A DNA stretch of 64,000 nucleotides. Origin: Anaerobaca lacustris (lineage in GTDB: Bacteria > Planctomycetota > Phycisphaerae > Sedimentisphaerales > Anaerobacaceae). Position numbers and translations under genes: made by a program. The stretch covers positions 248,001 to 312,000 of the forward strand of contig NZ_JASCXX010000002.1 of NCBI RefSeq assembly GCF_030012215.1. The letters are read 5' to 3'. This document shows, piece by piece, positions 12,504 to 24,608 of this stretch (its first letter is position 1; the number at the start of each line of letters is the position of its first letter). The notes beneath the pieces are model-generated. The model ran no database searches, was not told where the DNA came from, and was given only the letters and a program-made list of their open reading frames with translations.

Positions 12504-14312
12504 TCACCGCGTTCCCTGCTCCTGCATCTGCCTCAGTTGTGTTTCGGTCTGTTCCAGTTGATCGTACAGCTCAGGCTTCTCCACCTGAATACGGTTCAAC
12601 AGGCCCTGCCGAACGTAGTCGGGATAGGCGGCGCTGTTGAGGAACTGACCGACTGCGAAGTAGCGTAGCACGGACATGGGGGGCAGGTCAACACGAAACT
12701 CGGGCTCGTTTATCGCGTTGTAGTAGTCGTAGACCTGCTGGGCCATCTGCTCTCGCCCGGCCGCGGCGTCGTCGTCGCGTATCGCATAGAGATAATAGCC
12801 CTCGGTCAGCAGCATCGCGATCTGCTCTCTCGCATCATTGATGCCCAGACTCTCCAGCTCCTCCCGCCAGCGATGGACGACATACTGCTCGAGCGAGACC
12901 CGGAACTCGTTGTGCGGGTAGCGTTGACGCAACTGGTTGTAGATCTTCGTCGCCTCTCCTTTGAGCCCGGCCTGATAGAACGACAGGACGGCGTTCTTGA
13001 GCATGTTGCGATGGCCGTTCTCGAGCGATTCCCGCGTGGTGGTGTCATCCTCGTATCCGGCGATGATCGCAAGAATGGCTTTGTTGTAGGGGGCAAACAT
13101 GCGCAGGTCGGGACCGAGGAAGATGTCGTTGTGCAAGATCGGCACGCCGGGATCGGCAGCCTGTATCTCTCGCTCGATCACCTCGGGAGGGCGCGTCAGA
13201 ATCATGATCTTGCCGTATCGGAAGAGATTCTGCAGGCTGTGAGCTACGATGCGCTGCGTGTTCGTCTCGTATCGCTGAACCTCAGGGTCGTTGATTTCTC
13301 TGGCCACGCTGAGCCCCTTGAGCGCCCAGTAAATGGCATGACTGTCGGGGTGTCGCCAATCCAGGGGCAGATGCACGTTGGGATCGGCAAAATCGATCGG
13401 CCCATATTCCCGGCTGACCTCCCGCATGCGAGCCGGCTCCAGCTTCCAGGTCTGACGCAACTCATAAGCCTTGGCGAAGAGATCGAAGCGCTGCATCGCC
13501 GTTGTGCCCCGGAAACGATCCACGGCGTCGAATGCGGCCTGGGGAAATTGCGTGGCGTTGCTGCCGCGCAGCGCCAGGTAGTTCTGGATGAGTTTCTGCT
13601 CGCCGGTGAAGGGCTCGCCGACTTCCTGGAGCGCCCGGATGAACGGGGCCACGTTCGGATCGGCGACGATCTCGGCCCATTCGGTGGGCGTGGTGATGAG
13701 GGCATCGAAGAACGCGTTGTCGTTGGCCGAGAGATGGTTGTCTTCGGACCCGAGCAGCGGGCGGATCGCCTCGGCCAACTGGAGCTTGTAGTACTTGTGC
13801 GCGTCGTCCGAGACACCCCCGAGTTTGTGCTGAAAAATACGGGCCAGTTCCCGATAGAGCGGAAGGGCCCTGGGGTTGATGGGAATTCCCTTGTCGCGGA
13901 GCAGTTCATAGCCGTTCCTGACCCAGCGCCAGCGTTGCTCGGGCTGGGAGGCGGGGATCGCAACGGAGATGTTGTAGGCCATGTTCCAGGCGTGGAACTC
14001 CCAGACTGCTGCGAAGCGCGGTTGCAGCGTCGTGATCCACTCGGCAAGCTGCTTGGCGTCGAAGAACTGCCCCTCTTCCTTCAGCTTGTCGGCTCGCATC
14101 CACAGGATATCGACGACCAGGCCGCGGAAGGCCCCCATCGCCACCGTGGCGAACGCCAGAGACGGCGGCGCATTCTCGAGCGGCTCGTTGACCACGAGCC
14201 CCATCTCCTGCCGCTGCGCGTTGATGTAATCGAGCTGCGCGCCCGCGGTATAGAGCAAGCCGGCGGCCATCGCCAGACAGATCACCATGATGAGGATGTC
14301 ACGTCCACGCAT
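12504..14312 (-). CDS. Hypothetical membrane-anchored helical-repeat protein, 602 residues
   Basis: I do not recognise a named family. The N-terminus has one hydrophobic helix (ILIMVICLAMAAGLLYTAGAQL) and then a long, mostly alpha-helical region rich in W, Y and R, with segments such as LAEWITTLQPRFAAVWEFHAWNMAY that resemble TPR-like solenoid helices; LQPRF followed by a W-rich helix is typical. A predicted coiled region ends the protein (QVEKPELYDQLEQTETQLRQMQ). Topology suggests the bulk is outside the cytoplasmic membrane. It lies after the ABC-2 ATPase and permease genes with the same polarity, so it may be the extracytoplasmic partner of that transporter. Confidence 0.75.
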   Translation of the reverse strand: MRGRDILIMVICLAMAAGLLYTAGAQLDYINAQRQEMGLVVNEPLENAPPSLAFATVAMGAFRGLVVDILWMRADKLKEEGQFFDAKQLAEWITTLQPRFAAVWEFHAWNMAYNISVAIPASQPEQRWRWVRNGYELLRDKGIPINPRALPLYRELARIFQHKLGGVSDDAHKYYKLQLAEAIRPLLGSEDNHLSANDNAFFDALITTPTEWAEIVADPNVAPFIRALQEVGEPFTGEQKLIQNYLALRGSNATQFPQAAFDAVDRFRGTTAMQRFDLFAKAYELRQTWKLEPARMREVSREYGPIDFADPNVHLPLDWRHPDSHAIYWALKGLSVAREINDPEVQRYETNTQRIVAHSLQNLFRYGKIMILTRPPEVIEREIQAADPGVPILHNDIFLGPDLRMFAPYNKAILAIIAGYEDDTTTRESLENGHRNMLKNAVLSFYQAGLKGEATKIYNQLRQRYPHNEFRVSLEQYVVHRWREELESLGINDAREQIAMLLTEGYYLYAIRDDDAAAGREQMAQQVYDYYNAINEPEFRVDLPPMSVLRYFAVGQFLNSAAYPDYVRQGLLNRIQVEKPELYDQLEQTETQLRQMQEQGTR

Positions 14313-14394: not shown

Positions 14395-15768
14395 TCAGAC
14401 GACGATCCGGGCCAGCTCGCGGAAGCTGAAGACGATCAGGGCCAGCACCAGCAGGAGAGACGCCTTGATGCAGACCATGAACAGCAGAACGTGCCCAAGG
14501 AACGACCACGCGATCAGGCGGCCCGGGACCAGGAACGTCGTGGGGTTGTATTTGTCGAACTGCGGCAGCAGGCGGACCAGGGCCCCGATGGTGTACGAGT
14601 AGATCTGCCACGCACCGGCGCCCAGTTGCTCGAAAGATTCCAGGATGAACCCGCTGACGGTGCCCGTGAAGAAGATCACCAGGCAGAACAGGATCGCGAC
14701 GGGAAACGACAGAAAGCTGGCCGCCAGCAATCCGAGACACGCCAGGAAGATGAGGCGGAACAGGATCAGCAGCGCGCCCCGGATGAAGTTGCCCGTGAAC
14801 GTATCGGCCTTGTAGAGAATCTCCAGGCCGTCTTCGAGCGGGAAGATGACCGTGGTATTGTTGTACGGGACGTTGAGGAACCCCACGGCGAGGTAGCCGT
14901 CGGCGGCAATGACGCGCGCGGGCACCTCGATCTCGCGAAAGGTCCGGACCGGATCGGCGCGATCCTCGGGCCAGATCGGCGTCTTGAAATCCCAGCCATA
15001 GCGGACCTGTCGCATATCGCCGATCTGCCAACGGCCGTAGACCTGGCCGTTCGGGGGATCGACCGCCACGTCATACTTGAACCGGATGAACACGCTCTGG
15101 TCCGGATCGAGCGGTCGGACGTTCTCAAACTCCCAGACCAGCCCTTCTCCCACCCCCGTCGCGCGCTTCTCCAACTGCTTGCGCAGGGTCAGCTCCTTGA
15201 GGATCTGGTCTCGCGGCAGCGTGGGATAGGCCTCGCGCAACTGCCCGGTCCTCTCCAGCCGGTTGTAGAGGGCGATCACTTCCTCCTGGACGTCCGGCGC
15301 CGCTGGCACGAGACCGGCCCGGGCGGTATAGAACTCGTTCTCGATCTCTCGAAGCGTGCTCTCGGAGGCATTGTAGAAGCCGGGCAGGAACACCACCACG
15401 GCATAGACAATGCCCGCGAAGAGCGTCACCAGGGCGACATTCAACACGACCACGCCCAGCAGCTTCCCGAGCAGGAGTTGGTACCGTCGGATCGGCTTGG
15501 TGACGACCGTGTAGATCTGTCGCTGCTCGATATCGCTGGTAATGGTGAAGACCGACACGATGATCGTCAGCAGACACAGCAGAAGGCTGGTCAGGGACAG
15601 GCCGTAACTGACGAATGTTTGAAGCCGGCCCTTGAGCGTCCCGTCCCCGGTGGCCGTCAGTCCCATGACGGGCAACAAGATGAGCAGCAGGACGATGAAC
15701 ATCACGGCGATCTTCATCCGCAAGGCCTGCCGAATCGTGTTGACTGCCACCGCCCAGACCTTACTCAT
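14395..15768 (-). CDS. ABC-2-type transporter permease with large external loop
   Basis: A 457-residue integral membrane protein. An N-terminal helix (IAVMFIVLLLILLPVMGLTA) and a second (LLCLLTIIVSVFTI) are followed by TKPIRRYQLLLGKLLGVVVLN, a coupling-helix-like segment typical of ABC-2 permeases, then an external domain of about 170 residues (roughly 125-310), and four further membrane helices to the C-terminus. The large insertion is like that of GldG/NosY-type permeases. The gene start overlaps the end of the ATPase gene by eight bases, so the two proteins form one transporter. Substrate cannot be told from sequence. Confidence 0.87.
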   Translation of the reverse strand: MSKVWAVAVNTIRQALRMKIAVMFIVLLLILLPVMGLTATGDGTLKGRLQTFVSYGLSLTSLLLCLLTIIVSVFTITSDIEQRQIYTVVTKPIRRYQLLLGKLLGVVVLNVALVTLFAGIVYAVVVFLPGFYNASESTLREIENEFYTARAGLVPAAPDVQEEVIALYNRLERTGQLREAYPTLPRDQILKELTLRKQLEKRATGVGEGLVWEFENVRPLDPDQSVFIRFKYDVAVDPPNGQVYGRWQIGDMRQVRYGWDFKTPIWPEDRADPVRTFREIEVPARVIAADGYLAVGFLNVPYNNTTVIFPLEDGLEILYKADTFTGNFIRGALLILFRLIFLACLGLLAASFLSFPVAILFCLVIFFTGTVSGFILESFEQLGAGAWQIYSYTIGALVRLLPQFDKYNPTTFLVPGRLIAWSFLGHVLLFMVCIKASLLLVLALIVFSFRELARIVV

Positions 15769-16999
15769 GACCGGCCTCTCCGTCCTTCGGTTCCTCGTGC
15801 GGCCTCTCGGTCGTCGTCGGCGGAGTCTTTCCGGTCAGCGCGTCCAGGACGCCTTTGCGAACCTGTCCATCGTCGGCGGATTGGGGCACCTCGGGCGGCG
15901 ACGGCTTGGCCGGCGCCACGTGCTCGGTCTGCGGCGTGGACATGGGCTTGGTCAATTCGCTGAGCAGGTCTCTGTCCGGTTCGGGGGTGGCGACCTCGGT
16001 CGGCTGGGGATGCTCCGTGTGAGGCGGTTCGACGGGCTTCTCTTCGGCCACCGGCGCCGAGACCAGCTTGTCGAGAATGCTGGCCTGCGACTTCTCGGCC
16101 ATCAGGAAGTCGCCGATCTGCGTCGTGCTGACCGCCCCGCTGGTCGGGCGGGCCTGCTGCTGGGCCTCGACCACCGTGTTGATGAAGAACGTCTCGAGTC
16201 TCTCCATCGGGCTGGTGATCTCACACTCGGCGTGCTCGTCGGCGAGGATCTGTTGGATCTTGCCGATGGCGGCGTCGCTGACGGCGCTGGTGACGATCTG
16301 CCGCTTGCCGCTCTGCTGAAGGAGTTCTTGGACCCGGCCCTCGGCCTGGATGCGGCCGCCGTAGAGGATCGCGATGCGGTCGCACACGTCTTCGACGTCG
16401 GCCAGCAGGTGGCTGCAGAGCAGGATGGTCTTGCCCCGCTCGGCCAGTTTGATGATCAGGTCTTTGATCTGGCGGGTCCCGATGGGGTCCAGTCCGGTGG
16501 TCGGTTCGTCGAGGATCAGCAGGTCGGGGTCATTGATCAGCGCCTGGGCCAGACCGATGCGACGGGCCATGCCCTTCGAATACATGCCGACGGGCCGGCT
16601 GGCGACGGCGCGCAGCCCGACCATCTCCAGCAGGGCTTCGATTCGCATCTTTCGCACCTTGGGCGCCAGTCCGAAAAGCCGGCCGTAGAAATCGAGCGTC
16701 TCGCGCGCGTTGAGGAACCGGTACAGATACGACTCCTCCGGGAGGAACCCGATCCGCCGGTTGATCTTCGGGTCCGTGCCATCCCCGCCGAGCAGCAGAG
16801 CGTGGCCCTTCGTCGGGTGCAACAGGCCGAGCAGCATCTTGATCGTGGTCGTCTTGCCCGATCCATTCGGTCCGAGCAGGCCGAACACCTCATTGTAGCG
16901 AATCTGCAGGTTCAGATCGTCGACCGCATAGGCCTTGGCGCGCCCCCACCAATCGGAGAACACCTTCGTCAGCGAGATTGTCTCAACGGCGTAGTCCAT
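15761..16999 (-). CDS. ABC transporter ATP-binding protein with long disordered C-terminal tail
   Basis: A 412-residue protein. Residues 1-225 form an ABC ATPase: Walker A GPNGSGKT (43-50), a YSKGMARRIGLAQAL signature (from 141, the variant seen in GldA/NatA-type ABC-2 ATPases), Walker B LLILDEPTTGLDP (160-172) and the switch His in LLCSHLLADVED. Residues 226-300 are the usual regulatory segment. Residues 301-412 are Pro, Glu and Thr rich and presumably disordered, but contain three similar short hydrophobic motifs (ILDKLV 308, LLSELT 345, VLDALT 384). It energises the permease encoded next. Confidence 0.92.
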   Translation of the reverse strand: MDYAVETISLTKVFSDWWGRAKAYAVDDLNLQIRYNEVFGLLGPNGSGKTTTIKMLLGLLHPTKGHALLLGGDGTDPKINRRIGFLPEESYLYRFLNARETLDFYGRLFGLAPKVRKMRIEALLEMVGLRAVASRPVGMYSKGMARRIGLAQALINDPDLLILDEPTTGLDPIGTRQIKDLIIKLAERGKTILLCSHLLADVEDVCDRIAILYGGRIQAEGRVQELLQQSGKRQIVTSAVSDAAIGKIQQILADEHAECEITSPMERLETFFINTVVEAQQQARPTSGAVSTTQIGDFLMAEKSQASILDKLVSAPVAEEKPVEPPHTEHPQPTEVATPEPDRDLLSELTKPMSTPQTEHVAPAKPSPPEVPQSADDGQVRKGVLDALTGKTPPTTTERPHEEPKDGEAGHE

Positions 17000-17068: not shown

Positions 17069-19006
17069 CTACGATCGAGATGCCGTCGGGTGGGACTCGT
17101 GGTCGAGATTCTCGCCAAAGCGGACCAGTCGCGCACTGTTGAAGACCACCACCAGGGAGCTGGCGAAGTGCAGGAACGCCGCCATGCTCGGCGGAATGAA
17201 TTTCGCCAGCGAAATGCCGACCACAATGAAGCCGATGCCGAAGCCAAGATTCTGGTTGATGACGTTTCGCGTCTTGCGCGAGACCTGGACCAGGAACGGG
17301 ATACGCCGCAGATCGTTGTTCATCAGTGCAATCGAGGCCGAGTTGATGGCGACGTCGCTTCCGGCCGCACCCATGGCGATGCCGAGGTCTCCGGCCGCCA
17401 GGGCCGGCGCGTCATTGATGCCGTCTCCGACGACGACCACCGTGTGCCCGTCGCGCTTGATCTGCTCGACGATGGCCAGCTTGTCCTGGGGCAGGCAGTG
17501 GGCTTTGTAGTCGGTGCAGCCCAACTCCCCTGCCACTCGATTGGCGACCTCGCTGCGATCGCCGGTGAGCATGGTTACCCGCTTGATCCCGATATCGACG
17601 AGTTCCTTGACGGCCCGTTGGGCCTCGGGCCGCGTCTTGTCTTGCAGGCCGATCCAGCCGATGCACCGCTCGCCCTTGGCCACATAGAGCGTGCTGAACC
17701 CCTGCTCCTCATCCAGGGCCGGGTCGGTAACGCCGGCGATGTCGACGCCGTTCTCCCGCAGAAACGTCTCGCGACCGACCATGATCCGGGCCGAATCGAC
17801 GGTGGCCGTGACGCCCTTGCCCGGCGTCTCCTGAAAGCCTTCGGCCGCCGGGAGCGAGAGGTTGGCTTCCTTGGCCACCTCCTGGAGGGCCCGGGCGGCC
17901 GGGTGCTTGCTCAACTGCTCGGCTGCCGCCGCTTCGGCCAGCAACTCGGCGGGCTCGACCCCCTCGGCCGGCGTCAGTTTCATAACGTAGAGTCGGCCGG
18001 TCGTGACGGTGCCGGTCTTGTCGAAGACCAGGGCCGTCATCTTGCCGGCGATCTCGAGGTCGGCCACGTTCTTGACAAGGACACCCAATCGCGCGGCAGC
18101 CGAGATGGCGGCCACCATCGCCGTCGGCGTCGCCAGAATGATCGCACAGGGACAGGAGATCACCAGGATGGTGATGGCCTGATTGATGTCCCGCGTGAAG
18201 AACAGAACGATGGCCGCGATCATCAGAACGGTGGGGATGTACCACATGATGTAGCGGTCGATGATCCGCATGATCGGGATCTTCGTGTGCTCGGCCTGCA
18301 TGATCAACGACTGGACCTTGCCGAGGGTCGTGTCCTGGCCGGCCTTGGTCACGCGGATGTCCATCGCGCCGGTCAGGTTGTTGGTGCCGGCGAAGACCTG
18401 CATGCCGGGTACCTTGTCGACCGGCAGCGATTCGCCCGTGATGGTCGCCTCATTGACGGAACTGAGCCCGCTGGTGACCTCGCCGTCGGCCGGGATGTTG
18501 TCCCCCGGGCGCACGCGAATGAAGTCGCCCGCCTTCAGGGCGCTGACCTTGACTTCCTGCTCGACGCCGTCGCCTGCCAGCAGATTGGCCTTCGTCGGCG
18601 TCAGTTTGATTAGTGACTCGATGGACGCGCGGGCGCCCAGCGCGGTGCGGGTCTCCACCAGTTCGCTGAGCAACATGAAGAACCCGATCAAACCGGCGGC
18701 AATGTACTCGCCCGTGGCGAAAGCCGCCACGATGCCCAGCGCCGCCAGTTCATCCATGTGCGATTGGCCGCGGATCAGGCTGACCATCGCGTGAATGACG
18801 ATCGGCAGGCCGAGCAGCAACGCGCCGAGCATGGCGAAGATCTCGGTGTTGAAGCTGTCGGGGCCGTAGATGAATCGGCCGACGCCGCTGTTGATCAGGA
18901 GGACCCCACCCGCCAGGGTCCCCAGCAGGGCCAGGCTGATTCGCCATTGCTGGCCTCGCGTTTCGTCGGCGGCGTCCTGTTGAAAATGCAAATGCTGATG
19001 GGCCAT
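17069..19006 (-). CDS. P1B-type heavy-metal-translocating ATPase without N-terminal HMA domain
   Basis: A 645-residue ATP-driven metal exporter or importer. The N-terminus is short and His-bearing (MAHQHLHFQQ) with no CxxC metal-binding domain. Membrane helices are followed by the actuator loop with TGESLPVDK, the ion-path motif CPC (residues 285-287), phosphorylation site DKTGTVTTG with D329, the nucleotide-domain HP motif (SKHPAA), MLTGDR and GDGINDAPAL. The last helix pair reads HFASSLVVVFNSARL, which does not fall cleanly into the Cu (MxxSS) or Zn/Cd classes, so the metal is uncertain. It follows three SPFH genes with 78 bases of spacing; see findings. Confidence 0.93.
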   Translation of the reverse strand: MAHQHLHFQQDAADETRGQQWRISLALLGTLAGGVLLINSGVGRFIYGPDSFNTEIFAMLGALLLGLPIVIHAMVSLIRGQSHMDELAALGIVAAFATGEYIAAGLIGFFMLLSELVETRTALGARASIESLIKLTPTKANLLAGDGVEQEVKVSALKAGDFIRVRPGDNIPADGEVTSGLSSVNEATITGESLPVDKVPGMQVFAGTNNLTGAMDIRVTKAGQDTTLGKVQSLIMQAEHTKIPIMRIIDRYIMWYIPTVLMIAAIVLFFTRDINQAITILVISCPCAIILATPTAMVAAISAAARLGVLVKNVADLEIAGKMTALVFDKTGTVTTGRLYVMKLTPAEGVEPAELLAEAAAAEQLSKHPAARALQEVAKEANLSLPAAEGFQETPGKGVTATVDSARIMVGRETFLRENGVDIAGVTDPALDEEQGFSTLYVAKGERCIGWIGLQDKTRPEAQRAVKELVDIGIKRVTMLTGDRSEVANRVAGELGCTDYKAHCLPQDKLAIVEQIKRDGHTVVVVGDGINDAPALAAGDLGIAMGAAGSDVAINSASIALMNNDLRRIPFLVQVSRKTRNVINQNLGFGIGFIVVGISLAKFIPPSMAAFLHFASSLVVVFNSARLVRFGENLDHESHPTASRS

Positions 19007-19084
19007 AGTTCCGTTCTCGTCGTCCGGTGTTCGCCGCTCGCCCTCGCCGGGCGAAAACGCGGCGGCTTCGTTTGTGTTGGGCGC

Positions 19085-20422
19085 CTACGGTGTCTGTCTG
19101 GGTCTTAGGGTCTGGTCGCGGTTGACCAGGATGCGAATCTCCTGTCCCTGCGACGTTGTCGCCGGCTCCAGAATGAATTTCTCGTCGGCGTTCTGAAGCA
19201 CCTTCTGGATCGCGTCCAGGTAGATCCCCTGGACGACCAGTTCGGGCCACTTGCGATACTCGGGCAGTATGCTCATCAAGTATGTGGCGTTCGCTTTGGC
19301 CCCTTCGACAACCTTGGTGCTCTGCGCCTGGGCTTGGGCAAGTGTGTTCTGGGCTTCGCCGGCCACCTGGGTCCACAGAGACTCCTGGCGACCGTCATCG
19401 CCGTCGGGCGCCATCAGGGCGGCGTACAGCGTCTCAGCGACCTGGCCGGCCGCGTCGGTGAGCGTCTGCTCGGCGTAGTTTCTCGCATTGCTGATCGCCA
19501 TGCCGCTTCTCTGGCTGGCGGCGATGAATTCCTCAAAGGCCCTGTCCACCTGGCGAGGCCATGTGGACGCCACCAACTGGACCTTGGTCACACGGATGCC
19601 GCTGTCGATGGCGTCCAGCTTCTGCTGGACCAACTGCTCGACGTGGCGGGGAATCGTGTCGGTGCTCTGGATCGCCTCGTCGATGGTGTACCGGACCATG
19701 GCCGTGACGACGGCGTCCTCGACCACACTTCTCAGCAACGGCGTGACCCAATCCTGCATGACGTCGAAGTAGATTTCCCCGGGCCGGGCGTCCCGGACGT
19801 AGACGTTCGTATAGAACGCCTCGGCATTGCCCACCTGGTAGTCGATCTGCCAGTTCGTATGCACGATGCTGTAATCGCTTACCTCACGGTCGAACGCCGG
19901 CCCCGAAGTTCCCTGGACGGCCCCGGGCAGCCCCGGAACGGGGCGAACGGCATCGCCCCGACTGCGCGTCAGACAGTAGCCTTCCGTCAACGGATTGAGC
20001 TTCTCGGGCACCATGTTTCGAGGCTTCGGGCCCTGTCCGATGAGGTCATCTCGCGTCTGCCGATACCAGAAGGACGTGACGGGCAGCCGGATTTGTGCCT
20101 CGACCGGGATCTTGACCAGTTCATCGATCGGATACGGAAAGACCCAGTGCCAGCCGGGGCCCAGAACGCGCTCTTCGCCGACGCCGCGGATGGCCCCGAA
20201 ACGCAGAACCAGGGCCCGTTCACCCGAATCGACCGTCTTGAAGCCCGAAACCAGGAAGGCGACGACCAGCACGATCATAATCACCTTCAGAATGGCAAAG
20301 CTGATCCGCAGCGCATCAGACAGGGATTTGCCGGCCGCATCCAGCTCCCGAGACTCGACGGCCTCGGGATCGCCTGGCGTCACGTGCTCGTGGCCATGTT
20401 CGTGTTCGTGTTTCTGTGCCAT
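19085..20422 (-). CDS. hflK: HflK-like SPFH/band 7 membrane protein with His-rich N-terminus
   Basis: A 445-residue SPFH protein. A cytoplasmic N-terminus with alternating His and Glu (KHEHEHGHEH at residues 4-13) precedes one membrane helix (AILKVIMIVLVVAFLVSGF) and the SPFH domain, which opens ERALVLRFGAI and PGWHWVFPYPIDELVKIP. An insert of roughly 60 residues with Pro/Gly-rich sequence interrupts the early domain compared with HflK. The C-terminal half is coiled coil rich in Ala and Gln, ending with FILEPATTSQGQEI. HflK/HflC form a cage around FtsH protease in other bacteria; no ftsH is in this window. It follows the hflC-like gene by 45 bases. Confidence 0.85.
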   Translation of the reverse strand: MAQKHEHEHGHEHVTPGDPEAVESRELDAAGKSLSDALRISFAILKVIMIVLVVAFLVSGFKTVDSGERALVLRFGAIRGVGEERVLGPGWHWVFPYPIDELVKIPVEAQIRLPVTSFWYRQTRDDLIGQGPKPRNMVPEKLNPLTEGYCLTRSRGDAVRPVPGLPGAVQGTSGPAFDREVSDYSIVHTNWQIDYQVGNAEAFYTNVYVRDARPGEIYFDVMQDWVTPLLRSVVEDAVVTAMVRYTIDEAIQSTDTIPRHVEQLVQQKLDAIDSGIRVTKVQLVASTWPRQVDRAFEEFIAASQRSGMAISNARNYAEQTLTDAAGQVAETLYAALMAPDGDDGRQESLWTQVAGEAQNTLAQAQAQSTKVVEGAKANATYLMSILPEYRKWPELVVQGIYLDAIQKVLQNADEKFILEPATTSQGQEIRILVNRDQTLRPRQTP

Positions 20423-20467
20423 AGGTCCTCAAGGAGAAACGGAAGGGATCGCCGTACCCAACGCAGA

Positions 20468-21367
20468 TCACTTTCCCGGTTCCAGTGACGGCATTTCGCG
20501 AAGATACTTGAACGGTTCGACATTGGCCGGGATGATGAGAGTCGTCCGCTCCTTCAGACTTGTCAACAGCGTCTCCAGATTCCGCAGGAGCATGGCCAGT
20601 TCCGGCGCCTCTTCCATCATCTGATAATACTGGGCCGCCTCGGCGTCCCCCCGCCCGCGGATGGCCTTGGCCCGCCCCTCGGCCGCCGCCAGCAGCGTCG
20701 CTCTCTTGGCGTCGGCATCGGTTCGGATCTTGATGGCCTCGGCGTTGCCCTGGGCGACGGTGGTCTCCGTCCGGCGGCGCCGCTCGGCCCGCATTCGCTC
20801 GAAAACCTCCTTCGTCACATCTTCACTGATCTTGAGCTGCTTGATTCCGAGCGTCTTGATCTCGATGCCATAGTCATTTCGCACCGGGCCCTGGAGGTCC
20901 GCCAGCATCTCGGCCTGGATCTGTCCAAGCTTGATTTTCTCCGGGTCGCTGTTGACGATCTCGCCGAACGTGTGCTCGCCGAGGACCCGGTTCTGCGCGT
21001 TGTTGAGCCGATAGCGAATGGCGTCGTTGGCGTCCGCGACGGTCCCGACCGCATTGAGGAATTTGAGCGGCTCGGCGACGCGCCAGACGACATACGTGCT
21101 GACGATGATGGGCACCGCCCCTCGCGTGGTGGTCTCGGCCGGAGGGGCATCGAGAACCCTCATGCGCGAATCGAATCGGTGGACCCGCTCGATCGGGGTG
21201 GGCCACTTGAAATACAGGCCGGGACGAGTGATCTCACGATCCTCCAGCGGACGGCCGAAGCGCGTGATGAACGCCGCCTCCGTCTCGCGAACCTGAAATG
21301 AGACGAGGTAGAGCGCCATAATGCCGAAGATGACGGCGATCAGTATGGGAATAGCGATCTTCTTCAT
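20468..21367 (-). CDS. hflC: HflC-like SPFH/band 7 membrane protein
   Basis: A 299-residue protein of normal HflC length. One N-terminal helix (IAIPILIAVIFGIMALYLVSF) leads into FQVRETEAAFITRFGRPL and PGLYFKWPTPIERVHRFDSR, the HflC signature. The distal SPFH region has NAQNRVLGEHTFGEIV, GIEIKTLGIKQLKISEDVT and the charged RAERRRRTETTVAQGNAEAIKI helix, then YYQMMEEAPELAMLLRNLETL, all as in HflC. It presumably pairs with an HflK-type partner to form an oligomeric membrane ring. Its ATG overlaps the stop of the upstream 690-residue SPFH gene (TAATG), so translation is coupled. Confidence 0.9.
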   Translation of the reverse strand: MKKIAIPILIAVIFGIMALYLVSFQVRETEAAFITRFGRPLEDREITRPGLYFKWPTPIERVHRFDSRMRVLDAPPAETTTRGAVPIIVSTYVVWRVAEPLKFLNAVGTVADANDAIRYRLNNAQNRVLGEHTFGEIVNSDPEKIKLGQIQAEMLADLQGPVRNDYGIEIKTLGIKQLKISEDVTKEVFERMRAERRRRTETTVAQGNAEAIKIRTDADAKRATLLAAAEGRAKAIRGRGDAEAAQYYQMMEEAPELAMLLRNLETLLTSLKERTTLIIPANVEPFKYLREMPSLEPGK

Positions 21368-23439
21368 TATCTGATGGTCTCCTCTATGCCGCCAATATCC
21401 AACAGACTGGTCGGGAGCCTGTCCTGAAGGTCTACAATAACCACCTGACTGTCGTTGGGATCGACAGCCACGACGTACTTGCGTATGCCCGGCAGCGCTT
21501 CGTCGAACACCGCCAGACGCTGTTCTTCCTTGAAGATTCTCGGGGCGGCCTTGAACGCCTTGATCTGCCCGGCGAAGCGTTCTCCCGTGGCCTCGGCCAG
21601 CGTGGCTCTCTCGAAGGCGTAGCTCTGGGCCTCGCGGAGGATCTTGAAGACTTCGCCTTTGGCCTGGGCAAGCGCCTCGTCGAACTGCTCGCCGAGTCGC
21701 TCGGCGTCGTCGGTTCGCCCTTCCGTCTGGGCGCTCTGGTATGCGGTCGCCAGGTCGGCCAGTTCATATGCCTTTTCCACCGAACCGATCAGTTCGCCCA
21801 GTGTGGCGTTCCGTTCGGCTTCGGCGTTGAGGACGAGCGCATGCTTTCTCTGCACCGCGCCAATGACGGCCTGGTAATCCGGCGCCACTTCCGGGGGCGG
21901 GTGGATGCCCTGGACGCCGAGAAACACCAACTCGATGCCCAGACCCTGCTCGTCGGCGGCCTCCTGAATCCTCTCGGTAAGGATCTCCTTGGCCCGGGTC
22001 CGCCCGGCGCCGAGCAGACTCTCGTTGTCCACCTGACCGGTGGTCACCATATCGACCTCGATCTCCGCGCTGGCGGCGAATTCCGTCAGCTCTCTGTAGC
22101 AGATGGCTTCGAGCAGAGCGGCCGGGTCGCGATGACCATAGATATACGTGTACAAGTCCTTGATGCGGTACTGAATCGGCATGTTTGCCTTAACCAGGCT
22201 GACCGGCACCGCCCCTTCCGCAAGAGTCTCCGTGCCCTGTTCGCTGGCCACCAGAAAGCTGAATTCGCTTTCGTAGTGGGTCTGCCCCCACAAGAGTGCC
22301 GGTTCGGCCATGGGCCGACCGGTCTTGGGGTCCCTGTGGGGAACGTAGCCCACGTAGAGTTCCATGATTTGCTTGGTGGGGTGCTTGTAGGCGGTGTCGA
22401 TGGGCCAAGGCAGCTTGAAATGGATGCCCGGCACGAGGTGGCGAACCTGGCCGTTGCCGGCGGTGGGACTGCCGAAGCGTTCGACGATGACCTCTTCATT
22501 CGGCAAGACCACGACGATGCAACTGGCCAGATAGAGCGTCGCGATCGAGAAAAGAACGAGCGGCACGACAGCCTTCTCCAACAGCTTGTAGAACCACGTC
22601 TGGGAGACCTGAAAGCCGAACTGATAGTCGATGGCCGCTGCGAGACTGCGGAAGACACCTCCGGGTTCGTTGATGATCCCGAGCAGTCGGCTGTCAAAAG
22701 CGGAGCGGCTGTACTGGCCCTTCAGCCGAGGGCGATAGATGTCCAGCACGGTGTTCAGCGCGGTCTCGGCGCCGAGCACGATCAGAAGGATCGGCACGAC
22801 GTATCCCATGACCAGCAGGGGCATGCGGAACTGGAAATGCGTTCCGGCCAGGGACAACGCCAGGGCAAAACAGACGACCGCCACGCCGAGAAGGAAGCTG
22901 CCCCCCGCTCGCAACGGCTTCCACGCGAGTTCGGCCGACATCCCCGTAGCATAGCGTGACAGCAGAAAACTGACGAACGCCACCACCGTCAGGAGGATGG
23001 CACAGACCAGCGGCTGCTGGGTCGGAACCGACACCGCCGGCGTCAGACCACGCAGCAGGTACAGACCCAGGGCGATCTCATAGACGGCGATCAGGGCGCT
23101 GAAGATCGGGAGGAACCATTTCTCCAGCAAATCGAGCCGGCGTTGGGCCGCCGCCAGCAGCGTCGCCCGCTCGCCCTTGCCTTCAAACAGGCTCGATCCG
23201 CTCTTGTCCTGGGCCAGTTGCGTCATGTCCAGCCGCTCTTGTTCGGCCAGACTGCGCTGGTGAAACTGGATCGCCAGCACCAGCCAGATCAGCGCGGCGC
23301 CGAGGATCTGCCATGCCACGGCCGAGACGGAGAAGAACCCGCTCCAGCGGCCGAGAAAGAAAGCGATCCCGAAAAAGATCAGGCTCAAGACCAGGGAGAC
23401 CCAGGCCACGTGCTCGGGGCGTTTCGACGATGTCGTCAT
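21367..23439 (-). CDS. Polytopic SPFH/HflK-type protein, 690 residues
   Basis: An unusual SPFH protein. Before the band 7 domain come about 300 residues with six or more predicted membrane helices (for example WVSLVLSLIFFGIAFFLG, ALIWLVLAIQF, ILLTVVAFVSFLLSRYA, MPLLVMGYVVPILLIVLG). A further helix (VVPLVLFSIATLYLASCIVVVL) then leads into the SPFH domain with NEEVIVERFG and PGIHFKLPWPIDTAYKHPT. The distal part has LGIELVFLGVQGIHPP and long Ala/Glu-rich coiled coil (YELADLATAYQSAQTEGR), as in HflK. Standard HflK has a single helix. It is the first gene of the SPFH-ATPase run and overlaps hflC, so it likely assembles with it. Confidence 0.85.
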   Translation of the reverse strand: MTTSSKRPEHVAWVSLVLSLIFFGIAFFLGRWSGFFSVSAVAWQILGAALIWLVLAIQFHQRSLAEQERLDMTQLAQDKSGSSLFEGKGERATLLAAAQRRLDLLEKWFLPIFSALIAVYEIALGLYLLRGLTPAVSVPTQQPLVCAILLTVVAFVSFLLSRYATGMSAELAWKPLRAGGSFLLGVAVVCFALALSLAGTHFQFRMPLLVMGYVVPILLIVLGAETALNTVLDIYRPRLKGQYSRSAFDSRLLGIINEPGGVFRSLAAAIDYQFGFQVSQTWFYKLLEKAVVPLVLFSIATLYLASCIVVVLPNEEVIVERFGSPTAGNGQVRHLVPGIHFKLPWPIDTAYKHPTKQIMELYVGYVPHRDPKTGRPMAEPALLWGQTHYESEFSFLVASEQGTETLAEGAVPVSLVKANMPIQYRIKDLYTYIYGHRDPAALLEAICYRELTEFAASAEIEVDMVTTGQVDNESLLGAGRTRAKEILTERIQEAADEQGLGIELVFLGVQGIHPPPEVAPDYQAVIGAVQRKHALVLNAEAERNATLGELIGSVEKAYELADLATAYQSAQTEGRTDDAERLGEQFDEALAQAKGEVFKILREAQSYAFERATLAEATGERFAGQIKAFKAAPRIFKEEQRLAVFDEALPGIRKYVVAVDPNDSQVVIVDLQDRLPTSLLDIGGIEETIR

Positions 23440-23510
23440 TTCGTGCTTCGACTCCCGACAGCGAACAAAAATCCGCTCAACCAGTATCTACTAATCAAAG
23501 GCCTTTGCCC

Positions 23511-23539
23511 TTTACAGGCAGGAAGTTCGGTACTATAAC
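23511..23539 (+). promoter_or_regulatory. Sigma-70-type promoter for the orphan ABC-2 permease
   Basis: TTTACA (23511-23516) and TATAAC (23534-23539) are separated by exactly 17 bases, five matches of six in each box. It lies in the 203-base divergent gap between the SPFH operon start and the permease start; transcription would begin about 95 bases before the permease ATG. Confidence 0.6.
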
Positions 23540-23642
23540 ACCCAATGTGAGTCTCGTGTAGTGACAATCACGAAAAAATACGCTCCACGGGGTCCGTCGC
23601 CGGAGAAACGACGACAGGCGCCTGCGGACATCAGGGTCAGAA

Positions 23643-24608
23643 ATGCTCAATAAGCTCGCTGCGATTGCCAGGAATACGTTTGTCGAAACCATTCGACAAC
23701 CCGTGTACGCGGTCATCATCGGGATTGCCCTTCTGTTGTTCCTTCTCAGCCCGTCCCTGTCCATGTACACCTTCGACGATGACAACAAACTCTTGCGTGA
23801 GCTCGGCCTTTCTACGCTTTTCCTGATGAGCTTGTTCGTGGCAATCTTCTCCGCGTCCGGGGCAGTGGCCGTGGAGCTGGAGAACAAGACGATCCTGACG
23901 GTGCTGACCAAACCGGTTCAACGTCCGATATTTATGGTCGGCAAGTTCCTCGGTGTGGCCGCCGCCGTGGGCATTGCCCACTACGTCGGCACGATCGCTC
24001 TGCTGATGACCATCCGGCACGGCGTCCTCGAAACGGCCGCGGACACGCACGACTGGACCGTGGTGGGCGCCGCCATCGCGATCGTGGCGATCACCCTCCT
24101 TCTCAGCACGTTCTTCAACTACACCTACGACTGGAAGTTCACCTCGACGGCGGTGATCGTTCTGGCGGTGCTCGCCACATTCGGCATCGTGTTTCTGGCG
24201 TTGATCGACCGCAACTGGCAGTTCAACCCGGCCGAGAACGGAATCCACACTCTTGACGTCTACGGGGCGACGCTGCTGTTCCTGGCGGCTGTCGTCATCG
24301 CGGCCCTGGCGGTCGCGATCTCGGCGCGATTCAACACCGTGGTGACTCTTTCGGCCTGCATCGGGCTGTTCCTGCTGGGGCTGACGAGCGACTATGTGTT
24401 CGGCCGGTTTGCCGAGATCCACCTGTGGGCTCGAATCGGCCGGGCGCTGGTCCCGAACCTGCAGGTGTTCTGGATCAGCGACGCCATTTATGAGGGCAGT
24501 ACCGTACCCGCCAAGTACATCCTCGTTGGTGGGGTCTACGCGATCTGCTACGCGGGGGGCATCCTTGCTCTGGCCGTGGCGCTGTTTCAAAGGAGGCAGG
24601 TCGGCTGA
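23643..24608 (+). CDS. ABC-2-type transporter permease, no adjacent ATPase
   Basis: A 321-residue membrane protein. The N-terminus NTFVETIRQPVYAVIIGIALLLFLLS and the segment ELENKTILTVLTKPVQRPIFMVGKFLGVA are the coupling-helix region of ABC-2 permeases of the NosY/GldF type; six membrane helices follow the usual spacing, with a long helix pair near 220-260. No ATP-binding gene is next to it: the neighbour downstream is a convergent acetyltransferase 12 bases away and upstream is the divergent SPFH operon. It may use the ATPase encoded at 15761-16999 or one outside the window. Start ATG 23643; the Shine-Dalgarno (GGGTCAG) is weak. Confidence 0.85.
   Translation: MLNKLAAIARNTFVETIRQPVYAVIIGIALLLFLLSPSLSMYTFDDDNKLLRELGLSTLFLMSLFVAIFSASGAVAVELENKTILTVLTKPVQRPIFMVGKFLGVAAAVGIAHYVGTIALLMTIRHGVLETAADTHDWTVVGAAIAIVAITLLLSTFFNYTYDWKFTSTAVIVLAVLATFGIVFLALIDRNWQFNPAENGIHTLDVYGATLLFLAAVVIAALAVAISARFNTVVTLSACIGLFLLGLTSDYVFGRFAEIHLWARIGRALVPNLQVFWISDAIYEGSTVPAKYILVGGVYAICYAGGILALAVALFQRRQVG

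Follow-up and report, generated by a model that had tools for sequence, protein, structure and literature searches.

What do three SPFH genes of the HflK/HflC type do directly upstream of a gene for a P1B-type metal ATPase? The question is raised by a window of 64,000 nucleotides from Anaerobaca lacustris (contig NZ_JASCXX010000002.1, positions 248,001 to 312,000), the whole stretch of DNA that was analyzed, in which the list of open reading frames (ORFs) places genes for a 690-residue SPFH protein (the long SPFH protein), an HflC-like protein, an HflK-like protein and a P1B ATPase in one direction on the minus strand. The initial annotation had described a tight run with a TAATG overlap and spacers of 45 and 78 bases, and this layout was borne out, the successive gaps being -1 (GATAATG), 45 and 78 bases. 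Pfam places a Band_7 domain in each of the three SPFH proteins (E = 6.5e-12, 2.4e-27 and 6.2e-16) and E1-E2_ATPase and Hydrolase domains in the fourth protein. Surveys of genomes and contigs reveal that this arrangement is not a matter of chance: the trio is conserved along with the ATPase, its three SPFH positions are occupied by distinct paralogues, and all of these differ from the canonical HflK/HflC of the same genome. The reading we favor, with a probability of roughly 0.55, is that the four genes form one old module in which a three-paralogue HflKC-like SPFH assembly is dedicated to a P1B-type ATPase, probably for zinc.

The long SPFH protein was matched in 75 of 294 Planctomycetota genomes, and 51 of these 75 have a related P1B ATPase gene on the same strand no more than 15 kb away. 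This count left aside second fragments of an SPFH gene, which kept 79 places, and used the top 98 ATPase matches, so the linkage may be undercounted. In several of the remaining genomes the SPFH and ATPase genes are on different contigs. At the level of whole genomes, 64 have both proteins, 11 the SPFH protein only, three the ATPase only and 216 neither, at a threshold of 393 bits that was picked by eye; the Fisher p of 4.5e-49 for this co-occurrence ignores relatedness. Two of the three ATPase-only genomes actually carry adjacent SPFH genes (L153; L165 and L166), and two SPFH-only genomes (G119 and G165) have a linked ATPase that scores under the threshold. Scanning the genome contigs with the ATPase yielded 48 loci, 39 of them with at least three SPFH ORFs. 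Of the other nine, eight begin inside the ATPase or at most about 2.2 kb upstream of where it starts, leaving L092 (39% identity) as the sole locus with room for SPFH ORFs yet without them. Gene maps placed the ATPase upstream of the trio in one group of loci (L101–L111); in L112–L114 and L145 the SPFH genes stand beside ABC genes and the ATPase is missing from the cluster. A predicted permease (PF03773) lies directly upstream of the trio in L136 (1719–3266), with an overlap of a few bases, and a related predicted permease occupies the same place in L135 and L138, the L136 copy being the only one scanned.

Outside Planctomycetota, coverage consisted of plasmids and E. coli genomes, and the long SPFH protein and the Klebsiella ATPase served as queries in the plasmid protein searches. 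The same quartet, in the same order, was found on plasmids of Rhizobium tumorigenes, Paraburkholderia sprentiae, Klebsiella aerogenes and Burkholderia ubonensis and in two more Rhizobium records. It is present in all six examined plasmid records with an ATPase identity of at least 52% (four chosen via an SPFH match, two via the ATPase alone), and SPFH neighbors occur in none of the three examined records with an ATPase identity of 32–37%; match coordinates were the basis for judging linkage in four of the ten plasmid ATPases of high identity. The initial annotation would have fallen had related genomes lacked the pairing; instead the pairing is conserved in Planctomycetota and present on Pseudomonadota plasmids. 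In Paraburkholderia the module belongs to a zinc-uptake island, where the annotation lists, ahead of the module, a TonB system, a TonB-dependent receptor, a Fur-family regulator, a ZigA zinc metallochaperone GTPase, a zinc ABC transporter, a DUF2946 protein and PCuAC. In Klebsiella a gene for a DUF4198 protein lies upstream of the module, and the SPFH genes gave no DNA match in E. coli genomes. This trio and its P1B ATPase (L163, 7371–13097) are on a plasmid typed as conjugative; the module can therefore be carried by a mobile element.

To which branch of the SPFH family the trio belongs was examined by profile and by tree. The 299-residue protein passes the hflC model TIGR01932 (145.5 against 134.4), and neither the 445-residue protein (105) nor the 690-residue protein (81.7) reaches the cut-off of 159.4 for hflK (TIGR01933). 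A tree built from 118 SPFH proteins (36 loci plus controls) separates the module genes by position, first, second or third, into groups that each contain both phyla, with the exception of one divergent locus (L147) whose long and last genes are out of place. The 299-residue protein groups with the HflC-like proteins of other modules, apart from four canonical HflC, and the HflK/HflC of E. coli, those of A. lacustris itself and two more canonical pairs all fall outside the module groups. From these trees we conclude that the trio is old and is not a recently borrowed hflKC pair. Elsewhere the A. lacustris genome encodes an hflK-hflC pair of its own, on another contig, along with one FtsH above the family cut-off, also on a different contig from the trio, and two further SPFH genes. 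Given the separate pair and ftsH, the trio is an extra paralogous set rather than an HflK/HflC that has changed partners. The initial annotation had remarked that HflK/HflC normally accompany ftsH; as a statement about neighboring genes this fails, the order in E. coli K-12 being hfq-hflX-hflK-hflC. The module resembles the E. coli HflK-HflC-FtsH system in its SPFH domain and HflK/HflC-type sequence and differs from it in its number of paralogues (three, not two), in their position outside the groups formed by the four canonical pairs in the tree, in its partner gene, which encodes a P1B ATPase, and in a long subunit with an extra domain of six transmembrane helices (TMs). SPFH-NfeD operons (SPFH1, 2 and 5; PMC2636767) likewise join an SPFH gene to a conserved partner gene, although the partner there is NfeD and not an ATPase; the terms "P-type" and "metal" appear 0 times in the main text of that 2009 classification.

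The ATPases linked to SPFH genes are also a group of their own. The window ATPase passes the NCBIfam model TIGR01525 with 553.8 bits (cut-off 346.25), and the TGE, DKTGT, HP, TGD and GDGxND motifs are present in it and in 62 of the 62 linked tree members. In a tree of 92 sequences, a hand-chosen subset, all 62 SPFH-linked ATPases (56 planctomycete and six proteobacterial) lie on one side of a branch with an SH-aLRT support of 99, a side they share with four unlinked relatives; CopA, ZntA, CoaT-like and other P1B ATPases fall outside, and the unlinked relative L168 forms the next branch. This tree and the SPFH tree are quick maximum likelihood trees with SH-aLRT as their only support, and the ATPase alignment comprised 81 sequences of 590–719 residues, 77 of them SPFH-linked, with 15 shorter or longer ORFs omitted. 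In the alignment the TM8 pattern LHxxSS...NSARL has a His in place of the Asp of E. coli ZntA and the Met of CopA. This pattern is kept in 51 of 56 planctomycete and six of six proteobacterial linked ATPases, and also in 12 of 30 unlinked P1B ATPases. The window ATPase lacks the marks of P1B-2 (ZntA-like) ATPases, which we take to be the TM8 Asp and TM7 Lys at positions as in ZntA (here His and Ile), and those of P1B-1 (CopA-like) ATPases, which we take to be YN in TM7 and MxxSS in TM8 (here His for Met); the tree agrees in both cases. Pfam scans of four ATPases found no N-terminal HMA domain. By sequence, the best match in the PDB is 7qbz ("Cadmium translocating P-type ATPase"), presumably sCoaT. 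With CopA, ZntA and CoaT the window ATPase shares the catalytic core, the CPC motif and the P1B score, and it is set apart by its tree group, its TM8 His and the HMA domain not found. The only other matches to the ATPase in the same genome at E = 1e-5 are partial (24–41% identity) and fall in two longer P-type ATPase ORFs. CPC, the CPx metal-site motif, is found by alignment in the window ATPase and its close relatives, and in the tree set in 42 of 56 linked planctomycete and six of six proteobacterial ATPases. Altered CPx motifs (VPA, CPS, CPV) were seen in the unlinked group members L143, L144 and L092, the last of which has a very His-rich N terminus. Selenocysteine at the CPx site was considered for matches with one TGA inside and rejected, the TGA being the normal stop in the one case inspected.

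Histidine-rich N termini had been described for the HflK-like protein and the ATPase of the window, and both are present, as MAQKHEHEHGHEH and MAHQHLHF, with five and three His per 30-residue stretch, respectively. The feature is widespread without being universal: at least one module protein has a His-rich N terminus, defined as at least five His within a 30-residue stretch near the N terminus, in 52 of 98 loci, compared with none of 253 conserved neighbors (near-identical loci were retained in this count and in those for the ABC genes given below). Its location shifts between subunits, from the ATPase (32 of 84) to the HflK-like (21 of 98), HflC-like (seven of 98) and long (one of 98) proteins. 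By TM estimate these tails precede the first TM. In raw counts they go strongly with the CPC motif, at least four His in 30 residues being found in 41 of 48 modules with CPC and two of 18 without it, but the correlation comes down to 3–6 independent contrasts and is not significant once phylogeny is considered.

The N-terminal part of the long SPFH protein was examined in an AlphaFold2 model (mean pLDDT 69, pTM 0.40), with block means of 72–89 for residues 11–70 and 101–230 and of 45–57 for residues 71–100. The model shows six long helices at the N terminus, then one more helix and an SPFH part like that of HflK, and its top Foldseek match is HflK (7vhq_E, E = 6e-11). VIA-align, used as a second look at Foldseek's own matches, fitted residues 2–239 of this predicted model to YiiP with a Z of 20.5 and a root mean square deviation of 2.6 over 201 residues at ~10% identity. 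CDF transporters fill the top 16 rows of this fit, and the first hit outside both CDF and SPFH stands at Z = 10.4. The CDF metal site, which we take to be formed by conserved Asp/His in TM2 and TM5, has no counterpart among the columns conserved to at least 75%, none of which is Asp or His; Glu-225 and Gly-275 are invariant in 37 of 37 long SPFH sequences. The likeness to YiiP/ZnT zinc transporters lies in the predicted six-TM fold, the domain differing in its missing metal-site residues, its invariant Glu-225 and its fusion to SPFH, and on the model we take it as a CDF-like scaffold rather than an active antiporter.

A published parallel is the hmtA locus of Pseudomonas aeruginosa (PA2439–PA2434; PaFlo5–7 in PA14), as described in the passages of the papers cited here. 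Like the module, it combines three SPFH genes of the HflK/HflC type with a nearby gene for a P-type ATPase, and the window shares with the published list the HmtA-type order of three SPFH genes followed by the ATPase; it differs in that PA2436 stands between trio and ATPase and in that those passages do not mention an ABC-2 set. A znuA mutant induces PA2439 (HflK family), PA2438, PA2437 (HflC family), PA2435 (HmtA) and PA2434, and a weak Zur site is predicted (PMC4542158); the PA2439 promoter is shifted by Zur (PMC8531726). PA2437–PA2439 and HmtA proteins are up in low zinc, significantly for some (preprint PMC11761036), and the SPFH genes, under PA14 names that match PaFlo5–7, are slightly induced in a zinc-starvation response (PMC9431628). 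HmtA itself is a proposed zinc/copper importer. The report that hmtA is not among the genes that Zur binds (PMC10393844) sits uneasily with the Zur result at the PA2439 promoter. Deleting PaFlo genes had no pronounced effect on the traits examined (PMC13086221), in a paper whose main text contains "P-type", "ATPase" and "HmtA" 0 times, and in the open-access literature we found no paper proposing trio and pump as one unit. The metal handling suggested by the initial annotation draws support from this locus, from the recurrent His-rich N termini and from the Paraburkholderia zinc island.

A number of observations weigh against a single module for zinc. In seven planctomycete genomes of two families (G002, G034, G095, G172, G251, G270 and G278) trio and ATPase are both present but apart. 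By annotation there are no obvious metal genes beside the R. tumorigenes and B. ubonensis modules; a Pfam scan found no obvious metal genes in nine ORFs flanking the two further Rhizobium modules, and 20 ORFs scanned beside nine planctomycete modules, which belong to the proteobacterial-type and related branches, included no consistent zinc genes. One CPC cysteine is missing from 14 of 56 linked planctomycete ATPases in the tree set (CPS, CPG, TPC, CPL, CPV), so the substrate may vary within the group. For the CDF-like domain, Pfam Cation_efflux matched none of 33 long SPFH members, and a comparison of profiles, with 13 CDF sequences taken from 18 loci, gave a probability of 4–8%, roughly collinear (controls: 0.2% for the divergent permease c4 and 0.1% for the SPFH part; a comparison with the permease c5 was discarded as a one-column artefact), so that the CDF link is not established at the level of sequence profiles. 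A genome-wide search gave no Zur-like motif. In P. aeruginosa, hmtA mRNA is not repressed by zinc (PMC8531726), import by HmtA was inferred from overexpression and needs confirmation (PMC10393844), and the assignment of HmtA to the module would rest on published gene order, with PA2436 intervening.

Other explanations have to be set beside this reading. Working with the ABC-2 set, the module might export metal or load it into membrane or exported proteins, uptake in Pseudomonas then being a lineage-specific use or a misreading. Export is the mode of most known P1B ATPases (PMC10393844), the His-rich tails come before the first TM, and planctomycete copies are tied to ABC genes: among the 91 loci that have three or more SPFH ORFs, those cut by contig ends included, c3 is present in 64, c4 in 66, c5 in 56 and c7 in 42. 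Set against the finding of no N-terminal HMA domain in the four ATPases scanned, and against the zinc-starvation response and zinc-uptake island of the proteobacteria, this account appears unlikely to us. We regard as still less probable that the trio modulates FtsH or another protease in metal stress and is merely co-regulated with the pump, as the P. aeruginosa papers assume. Canonical HflK/HflC do act on FtsH, one FtsH above the family cut-off is encoded in the A. lacustris genome, and two papers describe PA2437–2439 as modulators or interactors of FtsH (PMC9431628 and PMC11761036); however, this genome keeps its separate canonical hflK-hflC pair, its sole above-cut-off FtsH is on another contig, and the trio tracks the ATPase, plasmids included. 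In a third alternative some members of the group would have ceased to transport soft metals, the ATPase acting on a different ion or having a structural role in the complex; this could account for the CPx variants of linked members, for VPA, CPV, CPS and CPT in four unlinked relatives and for the His-poor modules without CPC, but it is very improbable given the CPC of the window and its close relatives, the catalytic motifs kept throughout the linked members and a CPC-His association that phylogeny does not sustain.

How would a module of SPFH proteins and a pump work? E. coli HflK and HflC form a periplasmic dome around FtsH, and we infer from this that the trio may form a dome for the ATPase. 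By this analogy it would be membrane-anchored and would hold or feed the pump. In the model the long subunit would bring its CDF-like six-TM domain into the membrane at the base of the dome, which would enclose or border the ATPase and concentrate metal for it. The His-rich tails, whether on the HflK-like, HflC-like or ATPase subunit, are predicted to be cytoplasmic and may bind metal beside the pump. The metal would most likely be zinc, perhaps also copper, and by analogy with HmtA the direction of transport would most likely be uptake. The initial annotation had proposed a membrane ring that physically organizes or regulates the ATPase, and such a role may apply. The stronger proposal of a transporter cage, in which a three-paralogue HflKC-type dome, one paralogue having a CDF-derived membrane domain, encloses the P-type ATPase and hands over metal, is possible but on balance doubtful.

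The same-strand run of the window extends past the ATPase to an ABC ATPase, an ABC-2-like permease and a 602-residue protein, with gaps of 69, -8 and 82 bases (Table 1). Gene maps reveal that in many Planctomycetota the divergent ABC-2 permease and the downstream ABC set are joined to the module. The ABC ATPase, two ABC-2 permeases and 602-residue protein are often kept with the trio, sometimes where the cluster is without the P1B ATPase. The model of the 602-residue protein (c7), a helical repeat, found no PDB match at an E of 0.001 or better. Its family was matched in 176 of 294 Planctomycetota genomes, many via a short conserved N-terminal stretch (WMRADKLKEEGQ.. in the window), and being so widespread in the phylum it is no marker of the module. 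In the divergent intergenic region an element TGTTATA(G/T)TAC...TGTAAAG is common to many close relatives. A longer form of the pattern occurs in the A. lacustris genome in the window and, with two mismatches, at four other places; a reversed control gave more (9 vs 5), and this search for Zur boxes showed no motif recurring through the genome as in a regulon. ZnuA homologues were located in the same genome.

Table 1. Positions in the window of the SPFH-ATPase genes, their domains and motifs, and the conserved neighbors
Feature	Position	Strand	Basis
Long SPFH protein, 690 aa, HflK-like paralogue	21367..23439	-	ORF, Band_7, tree, model, TM estimate
Architecture of long SPFH protein: N-terminal 6-TM domain, further TM, SPFH domain, helical C-terminal part			
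N-terminal 6-TM domain of long SPFH protein (residues 2-239), predicted CDF-like fold	22723..23436	-	Structural model, YiiP fit; profile support weak
Band_7/SPFH domain of long SPFH protein (residues 310-542)	21814..22512	-	Pfam
HflC-like SPFH protein, 299 aa	20468..21367	-	ORF, Pfam, NCBIfam, tree
HflK-like SPFH protein, 445 aa, His-rich N terminus, one predicted TM	19085..20422	-	ORF, Pfam, NCBIfam, tree
P1B-type ATPase, 645 aa, CPC motif, TM8 LHFASS...NSARL	17069..19006	-	ORF, Pfam, NCBIfam, alignment, tree
CPC motif of ATPase (residues 285-287)	18146..18154	-	Alignment
DKTGT phosphorylation motif of ATPase (residues 329-333)	18008..18022	-	Motif check
ABC ATPase (c3) of extended cluster	15761..16999	-	Pfam; conserved neighbor
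ABC-2 type permease (c5)	14395..15768	-	Pfam matches below cut-off; conserved neighbor
602-aa helical-repeat protein (c7), TPR-like in model, without Pfam match	12504..14312	-	Model; conserved neighbor
Divergent ABC-2 permease (c4), conserved beside module	23643..24608	+	Pfam; conserved neighbor
Divergent intergenic region	23440..23642	.	TGTTATA in 13/20, TGTAAA in 19/20 compared regions

The role of bacterial SPFH proteins is a long-standing question, for which the HflKC-FtsH model pointed to proteolysis. The tie of an SPFH trio to a single pump subfamily in two phyla offers a concrete second SPFH client with a simple readout, metal content. If the module reading is true, it would give the zinc-responsive SPFH genes of P. 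aeruginosa a role, and it provides a clue to the possible working of an unusual P-type importer; if the transporter cage is true as well, SPFH cages would house primary pumps as well as proteases.

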